DNA of 33,595 bases from Bacilli bacterium (GCA_017463365.1 JAFTPH010000040.1:1-33595), one strand, 5' to 3'. Positions 1 through 15,489 are shown, counted from the stretch's first letter. Numbers and translations: made by a program. Notes: generated by a model not told the origin, from the letters alone.

Positions 1-236
1 ATAGCTATACAGTTTATTTCAGAAAAACTATTTACTGTGTATTCACTAAATTTTAAGCTTTCTTCATTTGTTAATACTATTAAGATTTCATTATCAGTAA
101 ATTCATCATCAATAGTAGCATCACAGTATATCTTTTCTTCTGTTTCACCTTCTGCTTTGGTAATGTTATTATAGAATGTACATATTGTTAATACACTAAA
201 TAATAATAACATCATAACTAATTTTTTAAATTTCAT
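1..236 (-). CDS. Secreted protein, 5' part only (function unknown)
   Basis: The reading frame is open from an ATG at 236 to the window edge, giving about 78 residues of the N-terminus. It starts MKFKKLVMMLLLF, a lysine-rich n-region followed by a hydrophobic stretch to about residue 20, then a polar acidic segment (TKAEGETEEK), which is typical of a Sec signal peptide with cleavage near the KAEG. No lipobox is visible. The SD AGGAGG lies 7 nt upstream. The mature start, with DDEFTDNEILIVLTNEESLKF, loosely resembles N-terminal segments of secreted serine peptidases or dockerin-type proteins of gut Firmicutes, but this is recollection and not demonstrated. The 3' part lies outside the window. 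Confidence 0.75.
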   Translation of the reverse strand, partial: MKFKKLVMMLLLFSVLTICTFYNNITKAEGETEEKIYCDATIDDEFTDNEILIVLTNEESLKFSEYTVNSFSEINCIA

Positions 237-5825: not shown

Positions 5826-5994
5826 TTACTATTAATCTAACTCCTATAATAAATACCGTTACCACAATATATCCTATTCCCATAACAATATAACCAATTG
5901 CGGGACTTTCTTTAAATAATACCATTAAAAAATATAAACTAACAAAACCAATTATTCCCATAACTGATAAAATATAACCTAATACCTTTTTCAT
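5806..5994 (-). CDS. Small two-helix membrane protein
   Basis: A 62-residue protein made of two hydrophobic helices (about residues 4-27 and 33-54) ending in the basic tail RLIVKRKKQA, so both ends are probably cytoplasmic. Its ATG overlaps the stop codon of the preceding gene (TAATG), which implies translational coupling with the DUF1700-like protein. It is likely a small partner or accessory of that protein. No family is recognised. The C-terminal codons form half of the shared terminator. Confidence 0.7.
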   Translation of the reverse strand: MKKVLGYILSVMGIIGFVSLYFLMVLFKESPAIGYIVMGIGYIVVTVFIIGVRLIVKRKKQA

Positions 5995-7820
5995 TATTCC
6001 TCCACTAAACTAGCATATTTAACCGTTTCTTTAATGTCAAATTTACTGTTAACGCCTTTAATATATATGTCACCAACTGGTTTAGTAGTATTGTTATAAT
6101 ATTCTAAGTTACTATTATTAAATTCTAAATTAATTTTATCACTATATACGTCTAAGAAAATACTTTGTGTTTTAGTTGCTGTTATATCAATATTCTTGAT
6201 TGTAACACCATCTAAATCTAAATTACATCCCGTTAAATTAACTTTTAGATTATCAAAAATAGAGTTATACACCGCAAGTGTTGATGCTTCAACTGTTCCA
6301 TTTACATCACCAACAAGTTCATCTAAGGTAATATTACTTAAAGATTTAACAATATTTATATCTCCTACTATTTTACTAATATTTATATACCCAGTATTTA
6401 AATCAAAAGTAAATAATTTTGCTTCTAAATCTTCCATCGTAAATTGAGATGAATTAGTTGATGTTAAATTAAAGTATTCAGAATCTATTTCACTCATTGT
6501 TAAAATAGAAGCAACTGCAGTATAATCGTACATTTTAATTTCTGTTTGATTTACAACCACTGTTCCGCTAATATTTTTAAGTTTTAAATTATCGAATTTA
6601 TTGTTTTTAATTGCGATTTCACCTGAACCATTAGTAATATTCGCATTTTGATAATAATCTTCGCTACTAGCAAAACGACCTTGATTAAGTTCAAATAATA
6701 CTTCTTTGTATTCACAATTATTACTATTTGTTTGGGCATCATCTGTAGTATATGTAAAACTATTTATATTCGCATCTTTTAAAGTAAGGTTTCCACTTGA
6801 TAACGTAACATTTAATTTATCAAGATTTACTTTATTAACCGTAACTTGTCCATTATTTAACTTTAAATCAACACTCTTAGTTAAATCACTTGGTATTTCA
6901 ATAATAACAACAATTGTTGGTTCATTAAGAAGTCCTAAGAAATCGTAACTTTGTTTTTGATCAAAAGAAATTGTTAAAACGTTATTTTCAACAGTTGTTT
7001 TAAATGAACGTTCAAACTCCGAATGTTTAATAATCTTAAACTCGCTACCCTCTTGAATTGTTACTTTAGCAACTAAGTTATCTAAAACAACAGTCTCAAC
7101 ACTACTATCAACAAGCACTTCTTCTTTATTATCTAACGAAACGTTATCGCTAAATGAACGATTTAGATATCCATCACTAACTACACTTGTTGCACCAAAA
7201 ACAACCATTATAAGTCCTAACACTAAAAGAACTTTACCAAGAAAGCTCTTCTTTTTGGTAATTTTATCAAAGAAGCCAGTTATTGAAAAGTCTTGAAGCG
7301 TTTCCGCTTTAATAATTGGTTCTTTAAAAATATCTAAAAACTTACCTAATAAGAATGAAGCAATAAACCATCCTAAATCAAATAGATATACAATAACAAC
7401 TATCATGGCTATAAAATAACTAATTACAAAACCACTCATGATAATTTTATCTTGTGCATTAAATTTAGGAATTATACTTAACATATTAATAGAAATGATA
7501 CCTAAATATCCAATAATACCAATAAATGTTAAAATAACAATTACAGCCAAAATTAACGATGTAAAACCATTAACTAATTCTTTGCGACGGTATTCCTTTT
7601 GTCGTTTTGTTAAATAATTAACTTTCTTACTATCATATATTCCTTTAGCAACCTCAGCTGGAGTTGGCAAATCTTTTAAAATTTTTTCGATTTTTTCTCC
7701 ATAATCTAAAGCATTATTAATTTTTTCTTGATATACTTGAATAACTTTTCTTACATCTTTAGCTGGCAAATATTTTAATTCTTCTTCTAAAGCTTGTAAA
7801 TATTCGATTGCTGTTGTCAT
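5994..7820 (-). CDS. DUF1700 (HAAS)-like plus DUF4097-like membrane protein
   Basis: A 608-residue protein. Residues 1-75 (EYLQALEEELKYLPAKDVRKVI and a LPTPAEVAKGIYD segment) match the alpha-helical HAAS/DUF1700 pattern of a helical bundle starting with EYL..LE..L..LP. Four hydrophobic segments follow to about residue 215. From about residue 235 the protein is beta-strand-rich, with many short N/S/T-rich turns (KLNNGQVTVNKVNLDKLNV), typical of DUF4097-type putative beta-helix or adhesin domains, presumably outside the membrane. Start: ATG at 7820 has SD AGAGGTG. The frame runs 48 nt further upstream without an SD and crosses the promoter. HAAS proteins often pair with a PadR regulator; none is present here. 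Envelope-stress sensing is inferred from the family only. Confidence 0.78.
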   Translation of the reverse strand: MTTAIEYLQALEEELKYLPAKDVRKVIQVYQEKINNALDYGEKIEKILKDLPTPAEVAKGIYDSKKVNYLTKRQKEYRRKELVNGFTSLILAVIVILTFIGIIGYLGIISINMLSIIPKFNAQDKIIMSGFVISYFIAMIVVIVYLFDLGWFIASFLLGKFLDIFKEPIIKAETLQDFSITGFFDKITKKKSFLGKVLLVLGLIMVVFGATSVVSDGYLNRSFSDNVSLDNKEEVLVDSSVETVVLDNLVAKVTIQEGSEFKIIKHSEFERSFKTTVENNVLTISFDQKQSYDFLGLLNEPTIVVIIEIPSDLTKSVDLKLNNGQVTVNKVNLDKLNVTLSSGNLTLKDANINSFTYTTDDAQTNSNNCEYKEVLFELNQGRFASSEDYYQNANITNGSGEIAIKNNKFDNLKLKNISGTVVVNQTEIKMYDYTAVASILTMSEIDSEYFNLTSTNSSQFTMEDLEAKLFTFDLNTGYINISKIVGDINIVKSLSNITLDELVGDVNGTVEASTLAVYNSIFDNLKVNLTGCNLDLDGVTIKNIDITATKTQSIFLDVYSDKINLEFNNSNLEYYNNTTKPVGDIYIKGVNSKFDIKETVKYASLVEE

Positions 7821-7839
7821 AAAAACACCTCTTAAATTT

Positions 7840-7868
7840 ATTATAACATATCTTACACTTTTTGACAA
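7840..7868 (-). promoter_or_regulatory. Promoter of the DUF1700-like/62-aa operon
   Basis: TTGTCA (7868-7863) is a 5/6 match to -35. After a 17-nt spacer comes TATAAT (7845-7840), preceded by the extended TG-T. The SD follows within 15 nt. Confidence 0.65.
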
Positions 7869-9100: not shown

Positions 9101-9552
9101 TTATTCCATTTTTTTATTTTTTTCCAAAAGGGCATTGAAAAATCTTTTAAAAGACCCTTTTATAGTTAAAAATATACCTTTAATTAATTTAATAATCATT
9201 CTTGGATAAAACAAAAACACTAATGTTTTGATAACAGGTTGTCTTAATTTAATATATATATCTTTAAATATACTTAATCCTTCAATGTATATTTTACGCA
9301 TTAATATATATATTATTATACCAATTATTAGAAATAAAACAAAATGTATTGGTATATATCCTGATGCTAATTGATAAGAAAACTCATAACTAAATAAAAG
9401 CATACTTACCATATAGCTTAATAAAATAAATCTTTTTATCCACTTATTTATATTTTTAATAAAATAATACATTGTATCATAACTACTAATTAGAAATATA
9501 CCATATCCAATTAAATATACTATGATTCTAAATTCTTCTTTTGTTTCATAGA

Positions 9553-9556
<4 letters not shown>
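9101..9556 (-). CDS. yabQ: YabQ-like sporulation membrane protein
   Basis: A 151-residue protein with three hydrophobic helices in the first ~90 residues (VYLIGYGIFLISSYDTMYYF, LSYMVSMLLFSYEF, IHFVLFLIIGIIIYIL) and a basic, amphipathic C-terminus (RMIIKLIKGIFLTIKGSFKRFF). In Bacillus subtilis YabQ is a mother-cell membrane protein needed for spore cortex formation. The identification rests mainly on the position directly after yabP (start and stop overlap as ATGA) and on the shared topology with a Y-D pair in the first helix. The sequence alone is weakly conserved. The two genes form a unit transcribed away from lysS. Confidence 0.65.
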
Positions 9557-11448
<1,892 letters not shown>

Positions 11449-11453
11449 AAATT

Positions 11454-11485
11454 GGCCCTAAGCTTAATGCTTAGGACCTTTTCTT
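11454..11485 (+). terminator. lysS terminator
   Basis: GGCCCTAAGC and GCTTAGGACC pair with one mismatch around a 5-nt loop, then TTTTCTTATTCTTT. Confidence 0.8.
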
Positions 11486-12623
11486 ATTCTTTAAACCAAT
11501 CATTATATATATTTTCTAGTGTTTCTTTATCAATTATACCTTGATTATATGCATCACTTAGAGTATATGATTTATTATCATTATATACAATGTATCTTGT
11601 ATCTTCACAAAACTTAAAAGTAATCCCTGATATTTCTTTATAATACTGATTATTTTGTTCTGGAAGCGAAGCCCATATTTGTAAATATATTGAATCACCA
11701 TATATATTCTTTACATCATCATAAATCATTAAATCATCTAAAGTCCATAATTCCCATGTAATATCTGGATGTTCTATACTAAGTACTTCATCAAAATATT
11801 GTTTTATGATATTTCTTTTTGCTTGTCTAGTCAAAACATCATCAGTAAAGGTAATTCCAATTGGGGAATAACCATAATAACTTACAAATATTTCTACCAA
11901 ATCATCATAAGTTATAATACCCTTTTCATAGGCTTCTTCTTGTGTATAATGTTTACCATCATATATTACCCTAATACAACGCTGTGCATCAGCTTCATAA
12001 ACAAAATAATCTAACATTTCTACTAAATAATGACCGCCTGCTTGTTGTTTAAAATTAGAATAATACGCAACATGTGCCCCATTATATTCACCAAGATATT
12101 TTAATACTTGATAGTTGGGAATAGCTTCTCTTAATTCTAAATATATTTCTTCAGTTAATCCTTCTTCTTTTAACTCATCTGTTATTTTGAAGAATTCTTT
12201 TTCATAATTTAACCAATATTTATCAAAATTTTCTTTAATAGTTTTTAAATTATCTTCATTAATAATTTTATTATCTATTGCCTCTTGTAAACTATAAAAA
12301 TCATTATCAAAATATACATCTATTGGCCTTTTTATTCCGTATCTAGGATAATATATAAATTCATAACCTAATACTACTTCTGTATAATCACTACTACCTA
12401 ATGCAACAGGGTAATTTAATACTACTACATAGGCTTCATTAAAACCTCCAAAAAAGCAGTCAATCTTTATTTGTTCTCTTTCTTTCTCATACTTTATAGA
12501 AGCAGCATCAATTATTTCATTTCTTTTTTCTTCTGATAAGGTATCAACATATATATCTTTTTTACATCCACTTAAGCATATACTTAATATTAATAATAAT
12601 ACTAATACTATAATTTTTTTCAT
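11484..12623 (-). CDS. Modular lipoprotein with three 'SLxxAYxxGII' units (unknown function)
   Basis: A 379-residue predicted lipoprotein. The signal peptide MKKIIVLVLLLILSICLSGC has a lipobox ending at Cys20. The mature protein contains three copies of one module: beta-rich segments ending in a hairpin-like aromatic strand, then the helix pair pattern Y-x-(D/N)-x-x-x-Y-(S/T)-L/Q-x-x-A-Y/I-x-x-(G/K)-I-I-x-x-x-x-L-x-x-I. Copies are at residues 104-131 (FYSLQEAIDNKIINEDNL), 220-246 (HYTQEEAYEKGIITYDDL) and 347-374 (SYTLSDAYNQGIIDKETL). The same module recurs in the lipoprotein at 14128-15489. SD is GGGGG. It lies 25 nt after the 179-aa gene, in the same operon. I do not recognise the family; a surface-exposed role is inferred from the lipobox. 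Confidence 0.8.
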   Translation of the reverse strand: MKKIIVLVLLLILSICLSGCKKDIYVDTLSEEKRNEIIDAASIKYEKEREQIKIDCFFGGFNEAYVVVLNYPVALGSSDYTEVVLGYEFIYYPRYGIKRPIDVYFDNDFYSLQEAIDNKIINEDNLKTIKENFDKYWLNYEKEFFKITDELKEEGLTEEIYLELREAIPNYQVLKYLGEYNGAHVAYYSNFKQQAGGHYLVEMLDYFVYEADAQRCIRVIYDGKHYTQEEAYEKGIITYDDLVEIFVSYYGYSPIGITFTDDVLTRQAKRNIIKQYFDEVLSIEHPDITWELWTLDDLMIYDDVKNIYGDSIYLQIWASLPEQNNQYYKEISGITFKFCEDTRYIVYNDNKSYTLSDAYNQGIIDKETLENIYNDWFKE

Positions 12624-12648
12624 AATATTATTATCCCCCTAAATCTTT

Positions 12649-13188
12649 TTAAATTAATCTTAATTCTTCAACAATCATTGAATAAATGATATATACTGGT
12701 TCAAACTTATCCCCTTTAGGAGCAATATTTAAAATACGTTCTTCCCAAGCATCTATCATTTCCATATCAAATGGTAATTTGTTAGCTAGAACATTATCTA
12801 CTTCTTCTTCAACTTTTTTAATAAATTCTTCACGTTCTTCTGTTAACAATTCTTCAGCTTGTAAATGACAACGATAATCTTCTAAATAAATACTATAAAC
12901 AATTAATGGAGCATAGTAATTAAATAAATCTATGTTAGAAGCAAAATAATCTTGATACATAATATTTAAATCACTTAAAACATTTGATAAATATCCATAT
13001 CCTGCTTCAAATATTTCTTCTAAAACATCTTCTAATTTAGATCCTTTTTCATGTTCCGAATAAATATATTTTGTTACCTTTAGTACATCTTCTAATAATA
13101 CATATACACCAGAATTTGTTTCTTCAAGTCTTTTTATTAATTCTTTCATATCTACCATATAGGCATTATAATCTTCATATATATTCAT
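12649..13188 (-). CDS. Acidic helical protein, unknown function
   Basis: A 179-residue soluble, strongly acidic and probably all-helical protein (DMKELIKRLEETNSGVYVLLEDVLK, TEEREEFIKKVEEEVDNVL). There is no signal peptide and no transmembrane helix. The ATG at 13188 has SD AGGTG 4 nt upstream; a GTG 12 nt earlier overlaps the SD and is unlikely. It is the first gene of an operon with the modular lipoprotein downstream, and divergent from yebC. No family is recognised. Confidence 0.72.
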   Translation of the reverse strand: MNIYEDYNAYMVDMKELIKRLEETNSGVYVLLEDVLKVTKYIYSEHEKGSKLEDVLEEIFEAGYGYLSNVLSDLNIMYQDYFASNIDLFNYYAPLIVYSIYLEDYRCHLQAEELLTEEREEFIKKVEEEVDNVLANKLPFDMEMIDAWEERILNIAPKGDKFEPVYIIYSMIVEELRLI

Positions 13189-13208
13189 AAAGCACCTCAC
13201 GTATATTT

Positions 13209-13237
13209 ATTTTACCAAATTTTTAAATTTTATGCAA
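13209..13237 (-). promoter_or_regulatory. Promoter of the 179-aa/lipoprotein operon
   Basis: TTGCAT (13237-13232), a 17-nt spacer ending in the extended TG-G, and TAAAAT (13214-13209). It lies 21 nt before the ATG. Confidence 0.6.
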
Positions 13238-13293
13238 TAAATATAGAAAGACATACAAATTTGAACATATCACTTTATTTTTTTAGCCTTTTA

Positions 13294-13302
13294 TGTTATA
13301 AT
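13294..13302 (+). promoter_or_regulatory. Extended -10 promoter of yebC
   Basis: TG-T-TATAAT (hexamer 13297-13302), about 32 nt before the ATG. The -35 (TTTATT) is weak. Confidence 0.55.
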
Positions 13303-13333
13303 ATATGACGAATTAATAGAGAGGAGTGTTATT

Positions 13334-14065
13334 ATGGGAAGAGCGCATGAAGTGCGTGCAGCATCTATGGCTAAAACTGCCGCTGCCAAATCTAAATTAA
13401 ATAACAAATATAGCCGTACTATTTATATGATCGCTAAAAAAGGTGGACCTGATCCAGATGCCAACTTAGAATTACGTGCGATGATTGAAAAAGCAAAACG
13501 TGAACAAGTTAATGCTGATACTATTAAAAGAGCAATTGAAAAAGCAAAAGGTGGAAGTACTGAAAGTTACGAACCAGTTCGTTATGAAGGTTTCGGACCT
13601 AATAACAGTATGTTAATCATTGAATGTTTAACTGATAATGAAAACCGTACTTTAACTGCTGTTAAAACGGCTTTAAATAAATGTGGAGCAAAACTTGGAG
13701 TTGCTGGATGCGTTAGACATATGTTTGATTACTATGCGGTATTCACATTCGAAGGATTAAGTGAAGATGAAGCATTTGAAGCAGTAGCTGATTTTGATAT
13801 CGCTGATTTATTCGAAGAAGATGGATTCATTACTATCTATGCTAATAGCAATGATTATCAAGCAGTACGCGATGCTTTAACAGCTGCAAAACCTGATTTA
13901 ACATTTGTGGAAGACGTTGTTACATATGTTCCTCAAACTACTGTAACTTTAACAGACCAAAAAGAAATTGATCAATTCAACCGTTTAAGAGCTATGTTAG
14001 ATGATGTTGATGATGTTCAAGATTTATTCCACAATATTGTTGGATTAGAAGACGAAGAAGAATAG
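13334..14065 (+). CDS. yebC: YebC/PmpR-family protein
   Basis: A 243-residue protein with the three-domain YebC layout. The N-terminal helical bundle carries KLNNKYSRTIYMIAKKGGPDPDANLEL and ends in IKRAIEKAKGG, followed by YEGFGPNNSMLIIECLTDNENRT and the alpha/beta region with FEEDGFITIYA. Members act as transcriptional regulators or, as shown recently for some, as translation factors that help ribosomes through difficult stretches such as polyproline. The start MGRAHEVRAAS lacks the usual W-N-N found in many members, and the PDPDAN loop points to the YeeN-like branch. SD is GAGAGGAG. Monocistronic, between the two related lipoprotein genes. Confidence 0.93.
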   Translation: MGRAHEVRAASMAKTAAAKSKLNNKYSRTIYMIAKKGGPDPDANLELRAMIEKAKREQVNADTIKRAIEKAKGGSTESYEPVRYEGFGPNNSMLIIECLTDNENRTLTAVKTALNKCGAKLGVAGCVRHMFDYYAVFTFEGLSEDEAFEAVADFDIADLFEEDGFITIYANSNDYQAVRDALTAAKPDLTFVEDVVTYVPQTTVTLTDQKEIDQFNRLRAMLDDVDDVQDLFHNIVGLEDEEE

Positions 14066-14073
14066 TAATATTG

Positions 14074-14102
14074 AAGTGTGAATTTTCACACTTTTTTATT
14101 TT
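14074..14102 (+). terminator. yebC terminator
   Basis: AAGTGTGA and TCACACTT form an 8-bp stem with a 4-nt loop, followed by a T-rich tail. Confidence 0.85.
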
Positions 14103-14129
14103 TTAAAAAAGAAGGCTTAAGCCTTCTTT
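14103..14129 (-). terminator. Terminator of the 453-aa lipoprotein gene
   Basis: The palindrome GAAGGCTTAAGCCTTC (14111-14126) is followed on the minus strand by TTTTTT. It starts right at the stop codon and lies back-to-back with the yebC terminator. Confidence 0.8.
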
Positions 14130-15489
14130 AGTCATTTATTTCAAATTGATGAAATTCATATATTTCTTTAATATCTTCTTCTGAAAGAATACCTTTATAA
14201 TAAGCCGTTTTTAAATCATATATTTTTTCTTCATTAAATACTACTAATTTACAATGTGATCCTAATTCAAATTTTTTTCCTACTACTCTTACAATAGTTT
14301 CTTTTTCTGGATATTCTAATTCATTACATGCAACCCCTACGTAATAATCGTTATATTTATTATAGAAATTAAAACTTGGACTAGTAGTTTTATTAAAATG
14401 TTTTACAACATCAAGAAAGATTTCATTACTCTTATCTTTATTTTGAATATAATTAACAAAATCTAAATAACTTTCTTTATAATTTGTAGCATACCATTTC
14501 ATATCTTCATAATGTTCATATATGTAATTACCTACTTTATTTTCTTCTGCTATTTTATTTCGTACTTCTATGAAGATATTTTTATTAATTATTCCCTCTA
14601 AATAAGCACTTAACAAATCAGTTGTTGATATTATATTTCCAATATTTGGATGTGTTGTTTTGTATTGTACTTTTATAACCGTATCATTACTCATTAAATA
14701 TAATAAATCTAAATCTTTCTTAATATTTTTGTTTTCTTCTCTCCACCAACTAAAAGTATACCAAGAATAATCTTTTTCATTATACTCTTCATTTTTCACT
14801 CCAAATACTGATATTGTGCGTTCATTTTTTCCATCGACAATATATGTTCCATAGAATCCTGTCATATCAACTGGAGCATCTTCATAACTATCAACATAAA
14901 CATATTCTTTTTCCTCACACATCATGCATTTGCCATCAATATAATCGTGAGGAAGGTTAACTAGTGAAACAGTTTTTAGAACTTTTTCACATTTTTTACA
15001 TTCTAATATCTTTTCTCCATCGTCTTTACATGTTGCTTCTTTTGTTATTTTCCAGTTTCCTGGTTTATGTATGCATCTTTTCAAATTAGGATAAGGATCT
15101 ATTAAAGGATAATCAACATCAATGTCTCTATCATTTTCAAGATATCTTTCTCTTATTGTATACAAATCTTCACTTGCTAGATAACCGAAATAATATGCAC
15201 TTGCTAAAGATAAGCTTTTCCCATCAACAATATATAATACTTCACTGCCGAAACCAGAATAAGGGATAACATAGCCATCAATTTCTAGTTCGCCACCTTC
15301 CCATAAATAATCGGTTATATCAACAACAAAACCTTCTCCAAATTTACCTACAATATTCATATCTTTGGGGGTGTATTTTAAAACCTCAACTGCTTCTTTT
15401 CTTGCATCACTAATAGAATAAGTACCACAACTACAAAGCCCTATTCCTAACAACAAAATTATTGTGACAATAATCACTTTTTTATTCAT
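14128..15489 (-). CDS. Modular lipoprotein with zinc-ribbon insert (unknown function)
   Basis: A 453-residue predicted lipoprotein. The signal peptide MNKKVIIVTIILLLGIGLCSC gives a lipobox LCSC at residues 18-21, lipidated Cys21. The same module as in the lipoprotein at 11484-12623 occurs three times: residues 86-113 (SLSLASAYYFGYLASEDL), about 289-315 (DLLSAYLEGIINKNIF) and 417-444 (IYDLKTAYYKGILSEEDI). Between modules 1 and 2 sits a cysteine-rich insert: C139, H141, C154, then C164-x2-C167 and H181, C188-x2-C191. This resembles the small zinc-ribbon repeat (ATC..G...C..C......H.Y..GKC..C) common in Firmicute surface proteins. SD AGGAGGT precedes the ATG. Function unknown; surface location inferred. 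Confidence 0.82.
   Translation of the reverse strand: MNKKVIIVTIILLLGIGLCSCGTYSISDARKEAVEVLKYTPKDMNIVGKFGEGFVVDITDYLWEGGELEIDGYVIPYSGFGSEVLYIVDGKSLSLASAYYFGYLASEDLYTIRERYLENDRDIDVDYPLIDPYPNLKRCIHKPGNWKITKEATCKDDGEKILECKKCEKVLKTVSLVNLPHDYIDGKCMMCEEKEYVYVDSYEDAPVDMTGFYGTYIVDGKNERTISVFGVKNEEYNEKDYSWYTFSWWREENKNIKKDLDLLYLMSNDTVIKVQYKTTHPNIGNIISTTDLLSAYLEGIINKNIFIEVRNKIAEENKVGNYIYEHYEDMKWYATNYKESYLDFVNYIQNKDKSNEIFLDVVKHFNKTTSPSFNFYNKYNDYYVGVACNELEYPEKETIVRVVGKKFELGSHCKLVVFNEEKIYDLKTAYYKGILSEEDIKEIYEFHQFEIND

Follow-up and report, generated by a model that had tools for sequence, protein, structure and literature searches.

A circularly permuted surface module in lipoproteins of uncultured gut Bacilli and its genomic association with subtilisin-like proteases

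Two lipoproteins encoded on either side of yebC in the genome of a Bacilli bacterium, here termed A and B, are assembled from copies of a common extracytoplasmic module. An earlier note on this DNA had recognized the pair; what it missed is that the module is widespread, is circularly permuted in some relatives, and has its strongest functional association with S8 (subtilisin-like) proteases. The module, its common predicted fold, its surface architectures, its permutation and its genomic association with S8 genes were established by computation. We favor, with middling confidence, a reading in which the module serves surface subtilases as an accessory binding domain and the family works with secreted S8 proteases. 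The window analyzed, 33,595 nucleotides in length, is the whole of contig C19 of this 1.74 Mb, 97%-complete genome.

Detection of the module in A and B relied on a profile that excluded the window's own sequences and drew on units encoded on other contigs. With this profile, A scores 98.5 bits across three domains and B 31.1 bits, against a best score among 1000 shuffled sequences of 8.8 bits for a whole sequence and 7.9 bits per domain, which bears out the claim that two lipoproteins with a common module flank yebC. Protein A (11484..12623, minus strand) is a lipoprotein of 379 residues, and its signal (12564..12623, minus strand) was read from the sequence as ...LSICLSGC20, with the lipobox LSGC and Cys20. 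Its three modules, likewise on the minus strand, are A1 (12225..12476; residues 50-133), A2 (11871..12116; residues 170-251, the unit whose structure was modeled) and A3 (11499..11693; residues 311-375), which score 33.7, 31.9 and 44.5 bits, respectively, with the leave-out profile. The best relative of A is encoded on contig C18. As a single query A found no named relative; a two-row consensus query returned three, although one of its rows is approximate, having been adjusted toward similar Firmicute sequences, and served for searching only.

Protein B (14128..15489, minus strand) comprises 453 residues, and its lipoprotein signal (15427..15489, minus strand) reads ...GIGLCSC21, with the lipobox LCSC and Cys21. 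Both A and B show the pattern of a signal peptidase II substrate: a basic n-region, a hydrophobic stretch and the lipobox cysteine. Two modules of B are clear, B1 (15139..15357, minus strand; residues 45-117) and B3 (14155..14367, minus strand; residues 375-445, also modeled), and the profile recognizes units at residues 54-117 (12.3 bits) and 399-445 (28.9 bits). Between them, B2 (14578..14850, minus strand; about residues 214-304) is degenerate and scores -1.7 bits. Because the equivalent stretch of B's paralogue on contig C54, which is 44% identical, is still recognized at 15 bits, B2 is probably a decayed copy. Of the six copies originally counted, five are thus clear (three in A and two in B) and the sixth survives in degenerate form. 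The cysteine-rich, zinc-ribbon-like insert described previously is indeed present in B (14908..15075, minus strand; residues 139-194), with C139, H141, C154, C164, C167, H181, C188 and C191 as its Cys and His residues, and it is conserved in the C54 paralogue. It resembles the HxxW...ATC...CxxC repeats of large BspA/LRR_5 surface proteins in the same genome. One 1531-residue frame on contig C1 (L015/L016), for instance, combines LRR_5-like repeats with several zinc-ribbon-like HxxW...ATC...CxxC repeats and has a dockerin-like C-terminus (GDVDNNGNISTSDV).

The module consensus spans about 80 residues. Its first part reads I-x-x-Y-Y-G-x-Y-N-G-x-x-V ... I-G-G-V-x-F-x-Y and its second N-x-I-x-V-(W/Y)-x-D-G-x-F-Y-(S/T)-L-x-E-A-Y-x-x-G-(I/L)-(I/L)-T-x-x-D-L-x-x-I. 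AlphaFold2 models were obtained for A2 (pLDDT 74) and B3 (pLDDT 84, pTM 0.74), two units that are approximately 20% identical in sequence. Strand pairs are predicted at residues 12-21/24-31, 39-44/47-52 and 56-62/65-68 of A2 and at 13-20/23-29, 39-43/46-50 and 54-59/64-66 of B3, followed in each case by two helices. The two models, both derived from shallow alignments drawn from one set of eight sequences, predict a shared topology in which a helical hairpin follows three strand pairs, in keeping with the earlier description of beta-rich units with such a hairpin. The outcome that the earlier note had named as counting against it, single units lacking a shared fold, therefore did not arise. 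Conservation across 48 non-redundant units falls mainly on structural positions—G at 95%, Y/F at 97%, N at 72%, together with A, L and I—and no conserved catalytic set was found among them, so the module is unlikely to be an enzyme; it would most likely be a protein-binding domain.

No library that we searched supplies a name for the module. A PDB sequence search gave nothing above noise, and 25 diverse units could be placed in no consistent family by Pfam, NCBIfam or PHROGs; a parceling-out of the units among different known domains, which the earlier note had named as a refutation, did not occur. Foldseek searches with both models reached best E values of 0.98 and 0.55 in the PDB and 0.21 among viral models, all at low probability, and hence permit no fold assignment. 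The module may nonetheless carry a name in UniProt, InterPro/CDD or the AlphaFold DB.

One curated match deserves separate consideration. The sole Pfam match in A is to Plectin (PF00681), at 24 bits against a cut-off of 20.5, and lies in the hairpin of A3. Kinship with the plakin (plectin) repeat has several points in its favor: both have a beta-hairpin followed by two antiparallel helices and the signature L-x-x-A-x-x-x-G-(I/L)-(I/L) in the helical hairpin, both occur as tandem units, and the last strand pair and helices of our models follow the order that defines the plakin repeat (PMC4782060). However, four more strands precede these elements, the module being some 80-110 residues long with six predicted strands and residing in bacterial extracytoplasmic lipoproteins. 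The match itself covers 20 residues in one protein (profile positions 18-37 of 39) rather than a full-length repeat of 38-39 residues above the curated cut-off; none of the 25 units matches individually; a genome search peaked at 15.3 bits, below the cut-off, and 13 of 14 control genomes also gave matches. Plakin structures are absent from the Foldseek matches listed for A2 and B3. The predicted resemblance is topological at best, and we regard kinship between this bacterial module and the plakin repeat as extremely improbable.

A likeness to SHOCT (PF09851), raised previously, is not supported by sequence: a single unit of the 25 matched, at a sub-threshold E value of 0.035, and A and B gave no match up to E 10. 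We rejected a reading of the helical hairpin on its own as SHOCT or Plectin. The module shares with SHOCT a short helical hairpin, the G-(I/L)-(I/L)-x-x-(E/D) turn and a frequently C-terminal position. SHOCT is, however, a self-contained two-helix domain of about 30 residues (PMC3581485), whereas the models place the hairpin within a larger beta-rich domain, as the same earlier suggestion had allowed.

Circular permutation also bears on that arrangement. In nine relatives the helical hairpin and last strand come first, in most of them just behind the lipobox, and the remaining strands lie at or near the extreme C-terminus, so that the hairpin is shifted away from the C-terminal position typical of SHOCT. 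Separate profiles of the two module halves, trained without the permuted proteins, detect the swapped halves at 10-53 bits except for one hairpin in L072 (9.8 bits), against a maximum of 7.1 bits in 1800 shuffles. The permuted forms are cut in the turn that joins strands 5 and 6. L025 (normal order, 149 residues) and L045 (permuted, 151 residues) are nearly equally long; the order in L072, hairpin-[strands-hairpin]-strands, is what an intermediate would be expected to show. The most economical reading makes strands and hairpin a single fold, rather than a SHOCT-like tail appended to beta units; together with the models, this led us to reject a self-contained SHOCT hairpin. Natural circular permutants of a small domain also lend themselves to a clean test of which of its parts fold as a unit.

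How widely is the module distributed, and where in the cell would it act? In its own genome about 18 modules were detected in approximately ten lipoproteins, encoded on contigs C18, C19, C23, C37, C54 and C56. More broadly, 26 of 394 genomes sampled from the class carry the module, as do two of 399 from a Clostridia-side phylum sample. Relatives were found in none of the phages, plasmids or viral contigs searched, leaving a mobile-element origin without support. Among 55 module proteins, some of them close relatives of each other, 43 have a lipobox-like start by pattern and 40 carry a module within 15 residues of the protein end. The lipoboxes of A, B and these relatives agree with the cell-surface location proposed earlier, and fusions to an S8 peptidase (L077, L056), to three SLH domains (L087) and to LRR_5 (L012) confirm that the module is extracytoplasmic. 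BspA-type LRR_5 surface lipoproteins share lineage, operons and sometimes a polypeptide with the module, but are built from another repeat, and A and B have no LRR. By eye, a lipoprotein gene beside a module gene (L009:1437-2345) and a module lipoprotein gene (L148:2127-2924) have a common upstream stretch of 'ESGGN' type.

Within the window, yebC (13334-14065, plus strand; identified by both Pfam and NCBIfam) lies between A and B. An ORF of 183 residues (12649..13200, minus strand), with no family match in Pfam or NCBIfam, is located upstream of A in the same orientation, 25 bp away, and stays adjacent to yebC in close relatives. The two nearest genomes have the gene order M16 peptidase, 183-residue ORF, yebC, hsp33 and lack both A and B at this place, so that the two look like lineage-specific insertions. 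We rejected the idea that A replaced the relatives' M16 peptidase: an intact M16 gene is retained at C52 of this genome, and the gene order has therefore been rearranged instead. Nor does the neighboring position of A and B speak for their duplication, as had been supposed: B is nearest to the C54 gene (44% identity) and A to the gene on C18, A and B being 33% identical over 43 residues. The two are accordingly not recent mutual copies, and a tandem duplication was rejected. Elsewhere in the window, spore cortex genes resembling yabQ and yabP (9101-9831, minus strand) indicate that the lineage probably still has sporulation genes, and a protein with a HAAS domain and a toastrack DUF4097 domain (5994-7868, minus strand) is a possible LiaG-like membrane-stress protein.

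The association with S8 proteases is the principal guide to function. An S8 gene is present at 13 of 42 module loci and at none of 18 control loci (Fisher p = 0.005), a comparison in which the controls are few and related genomes are not independent samples. The module loci are mostly 7-13 kb each and the controls are 11-kb stretches, mostly from the same genomes. Where a module gene has a close neighbor (<60 bp), 10 of 34 pairings are with S8, all on the same strand, and two further loci encode module-propeptide-S8 fusions (L077 and L056). Neighboring S8 and ECF genes were called with small home-made profiles and checked against Pfam for a subset, which confirmed S8 identity for seven of the S8 neighbors and fusions. 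At a distance of 12 bp from a module gene lies a short ORF (L183:5483-6010, minus strand) whose serine motif, GTSYS, is S8-like; it is probably a decayed or truncated S8 gene and was left out of these counts.

Propeptides extend the connection. A profile of S8 propeptides detects a propeptide-like domain directly behind the module in two proteins that have no protease domain: a transmembrane protein whose gene has an ECF sigma factor gene on one side and an S8 protease gene on the other (L144:1974-3473; E 1.3e-10), and a lipoprotein (L164:4723-5727; E 2.9e-17). The module resembles S8 propeptides and stand-alone inhibitors (the fervidolysin-type prodomain PF22148 and inhibitor family I9) in its genomic and physical linkage to S8, and two module proteins carry such domains. 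It is nonetheless distinct from them, since the two stand side by side with the module first, and the propeptide profile has no match in A or B.

The genome that encodes A and B contains three S8 catalytic domains, two of which lead apparent operons, on C54 and C23, comprising the protease, an LRR lipoprotein and module lipoproteins; the last gene of the C54 operon is B's paralogue. The window itself holds the start of a secreted S8 protease gene (1..236, minus strand) that encodes a signal peptide and the opening portion of a propeptide (propeptide profile E 1e-13) before being cut by the contig end. C23 and C54 start within the S8 propeptide, with 141 bases identical. We infer that C19 may end at a repeat common to S8 genes and that the window may adjoin an operon of this kind. 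A position beside an S8 gene, or a fusion to one, is seen in the family at the 13 of 42 loci counted above and for B's paralogue; A and B have no intact S8 gene adjacent, only this gene start about 11 kb away.

Could the S8 link reflect shared surface operons rather than contact? A general ligand-binding or adhesion module, directed at host, food or envelope polymers and freely combined with domains of the LRR_5, SLH, Ig-like and protease types, would account for the SLH and LRR_5 fusions, a weak Ig-like match, the multi-copy expansion in this genome, the lack of a conserved active site and the 29 of 42 loci with no S8 gene within the stretch examined. The association with S8 is accordingly far from universal among module loci. 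Yet tight same-strand S8 pairs, module-propeptide-S8 fusions and module-propeptide proteins devoid of a protease appear too specific for free mixing, and we regard this explanation as possible but doubtful.

A sensory role was also suggested earlier, in the form of envelope sensing, and finds some purchase among relatives. In L144, L145 and L146, a transmembrane module gene comes immediately after an ECF sigma factor gene or overlaps it; in L155, L156 and L167, module lipoproteins are encoded behind an ECF gene and a transmembrane protein gene. In L145 (3237-3741, minus strand) the ECF gene is split into two overlapping frames, through either natural decay or an assembly error, with the transmembrane module gene alongside intact. 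Such operons would suit an extracytoplasmic sensor whose transmembrane forms are ECF anti-sigma factors and whose lipoproteins of the A and B type share or decoy the signal. Enrichment at the level of loci is not significant, however (ECF genes at 8 of 42 module loci vs 1 of 18 controls, p = 0.17), which led us to reject ECF association as the main function and to treat sensing as a secondary use. The window has no ECF gene, and A and B, as lipoproteins with neither a transmembrane nor a sigma-binding part, were rejected as anti-sigma factors in their own right. As a general account, the sensor reading is quite unlikely.

Returning to the subtilase-binding reading, A and B would be lipid-anchored at the outer face of the cytoplasmic membrane and consist of a repeated extracytoplasmic domain, about 80 residues long or about 110 with the helix in front. 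The module would recognize an S8 protease or else the protease's propeptide or target, and this recognition would tether or restrain the protease at the cell surface; in the transmembrane forms encoded behind ECF sigma factors, the same recognition could be used as a signal. Stand-alone propeptide-like proteins are described in one source as inhibiting subtilases in trans in other organisms (PMC6993865) and, given the propeptide-like domains adjacent to the module, a regulatory role for the family is plausible by analogy. For A and B, with no complete S8 gene adjacent, we infer that the role may be retained from the family's S8 associations. Searches of the literature on bacterial plectin-like or subtilase-lipoprotein systems returned nothing on the module. 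A bolder proposal, which we offer tentatively as rather unlikely, is that a family of dedicated subtilase-binding domains, permuted and strung together, controls the surface S8 proteases of uncultured gut Bacilli and Clostridia, with the transmembrane form reporting protease status to ECF sigma factors.

Several families of uncultured gut Bacilli, along with some Clostridia, carry the module in lipoproteins otherwise left 'hypothetical'. Its link to S8 proteases and their propeptides allows a surface protein of this obscure kind to be tested as a protease partner. The ECF-linked forms, for their part, hint at a way in which such bacteria might sense surface proteolysis.
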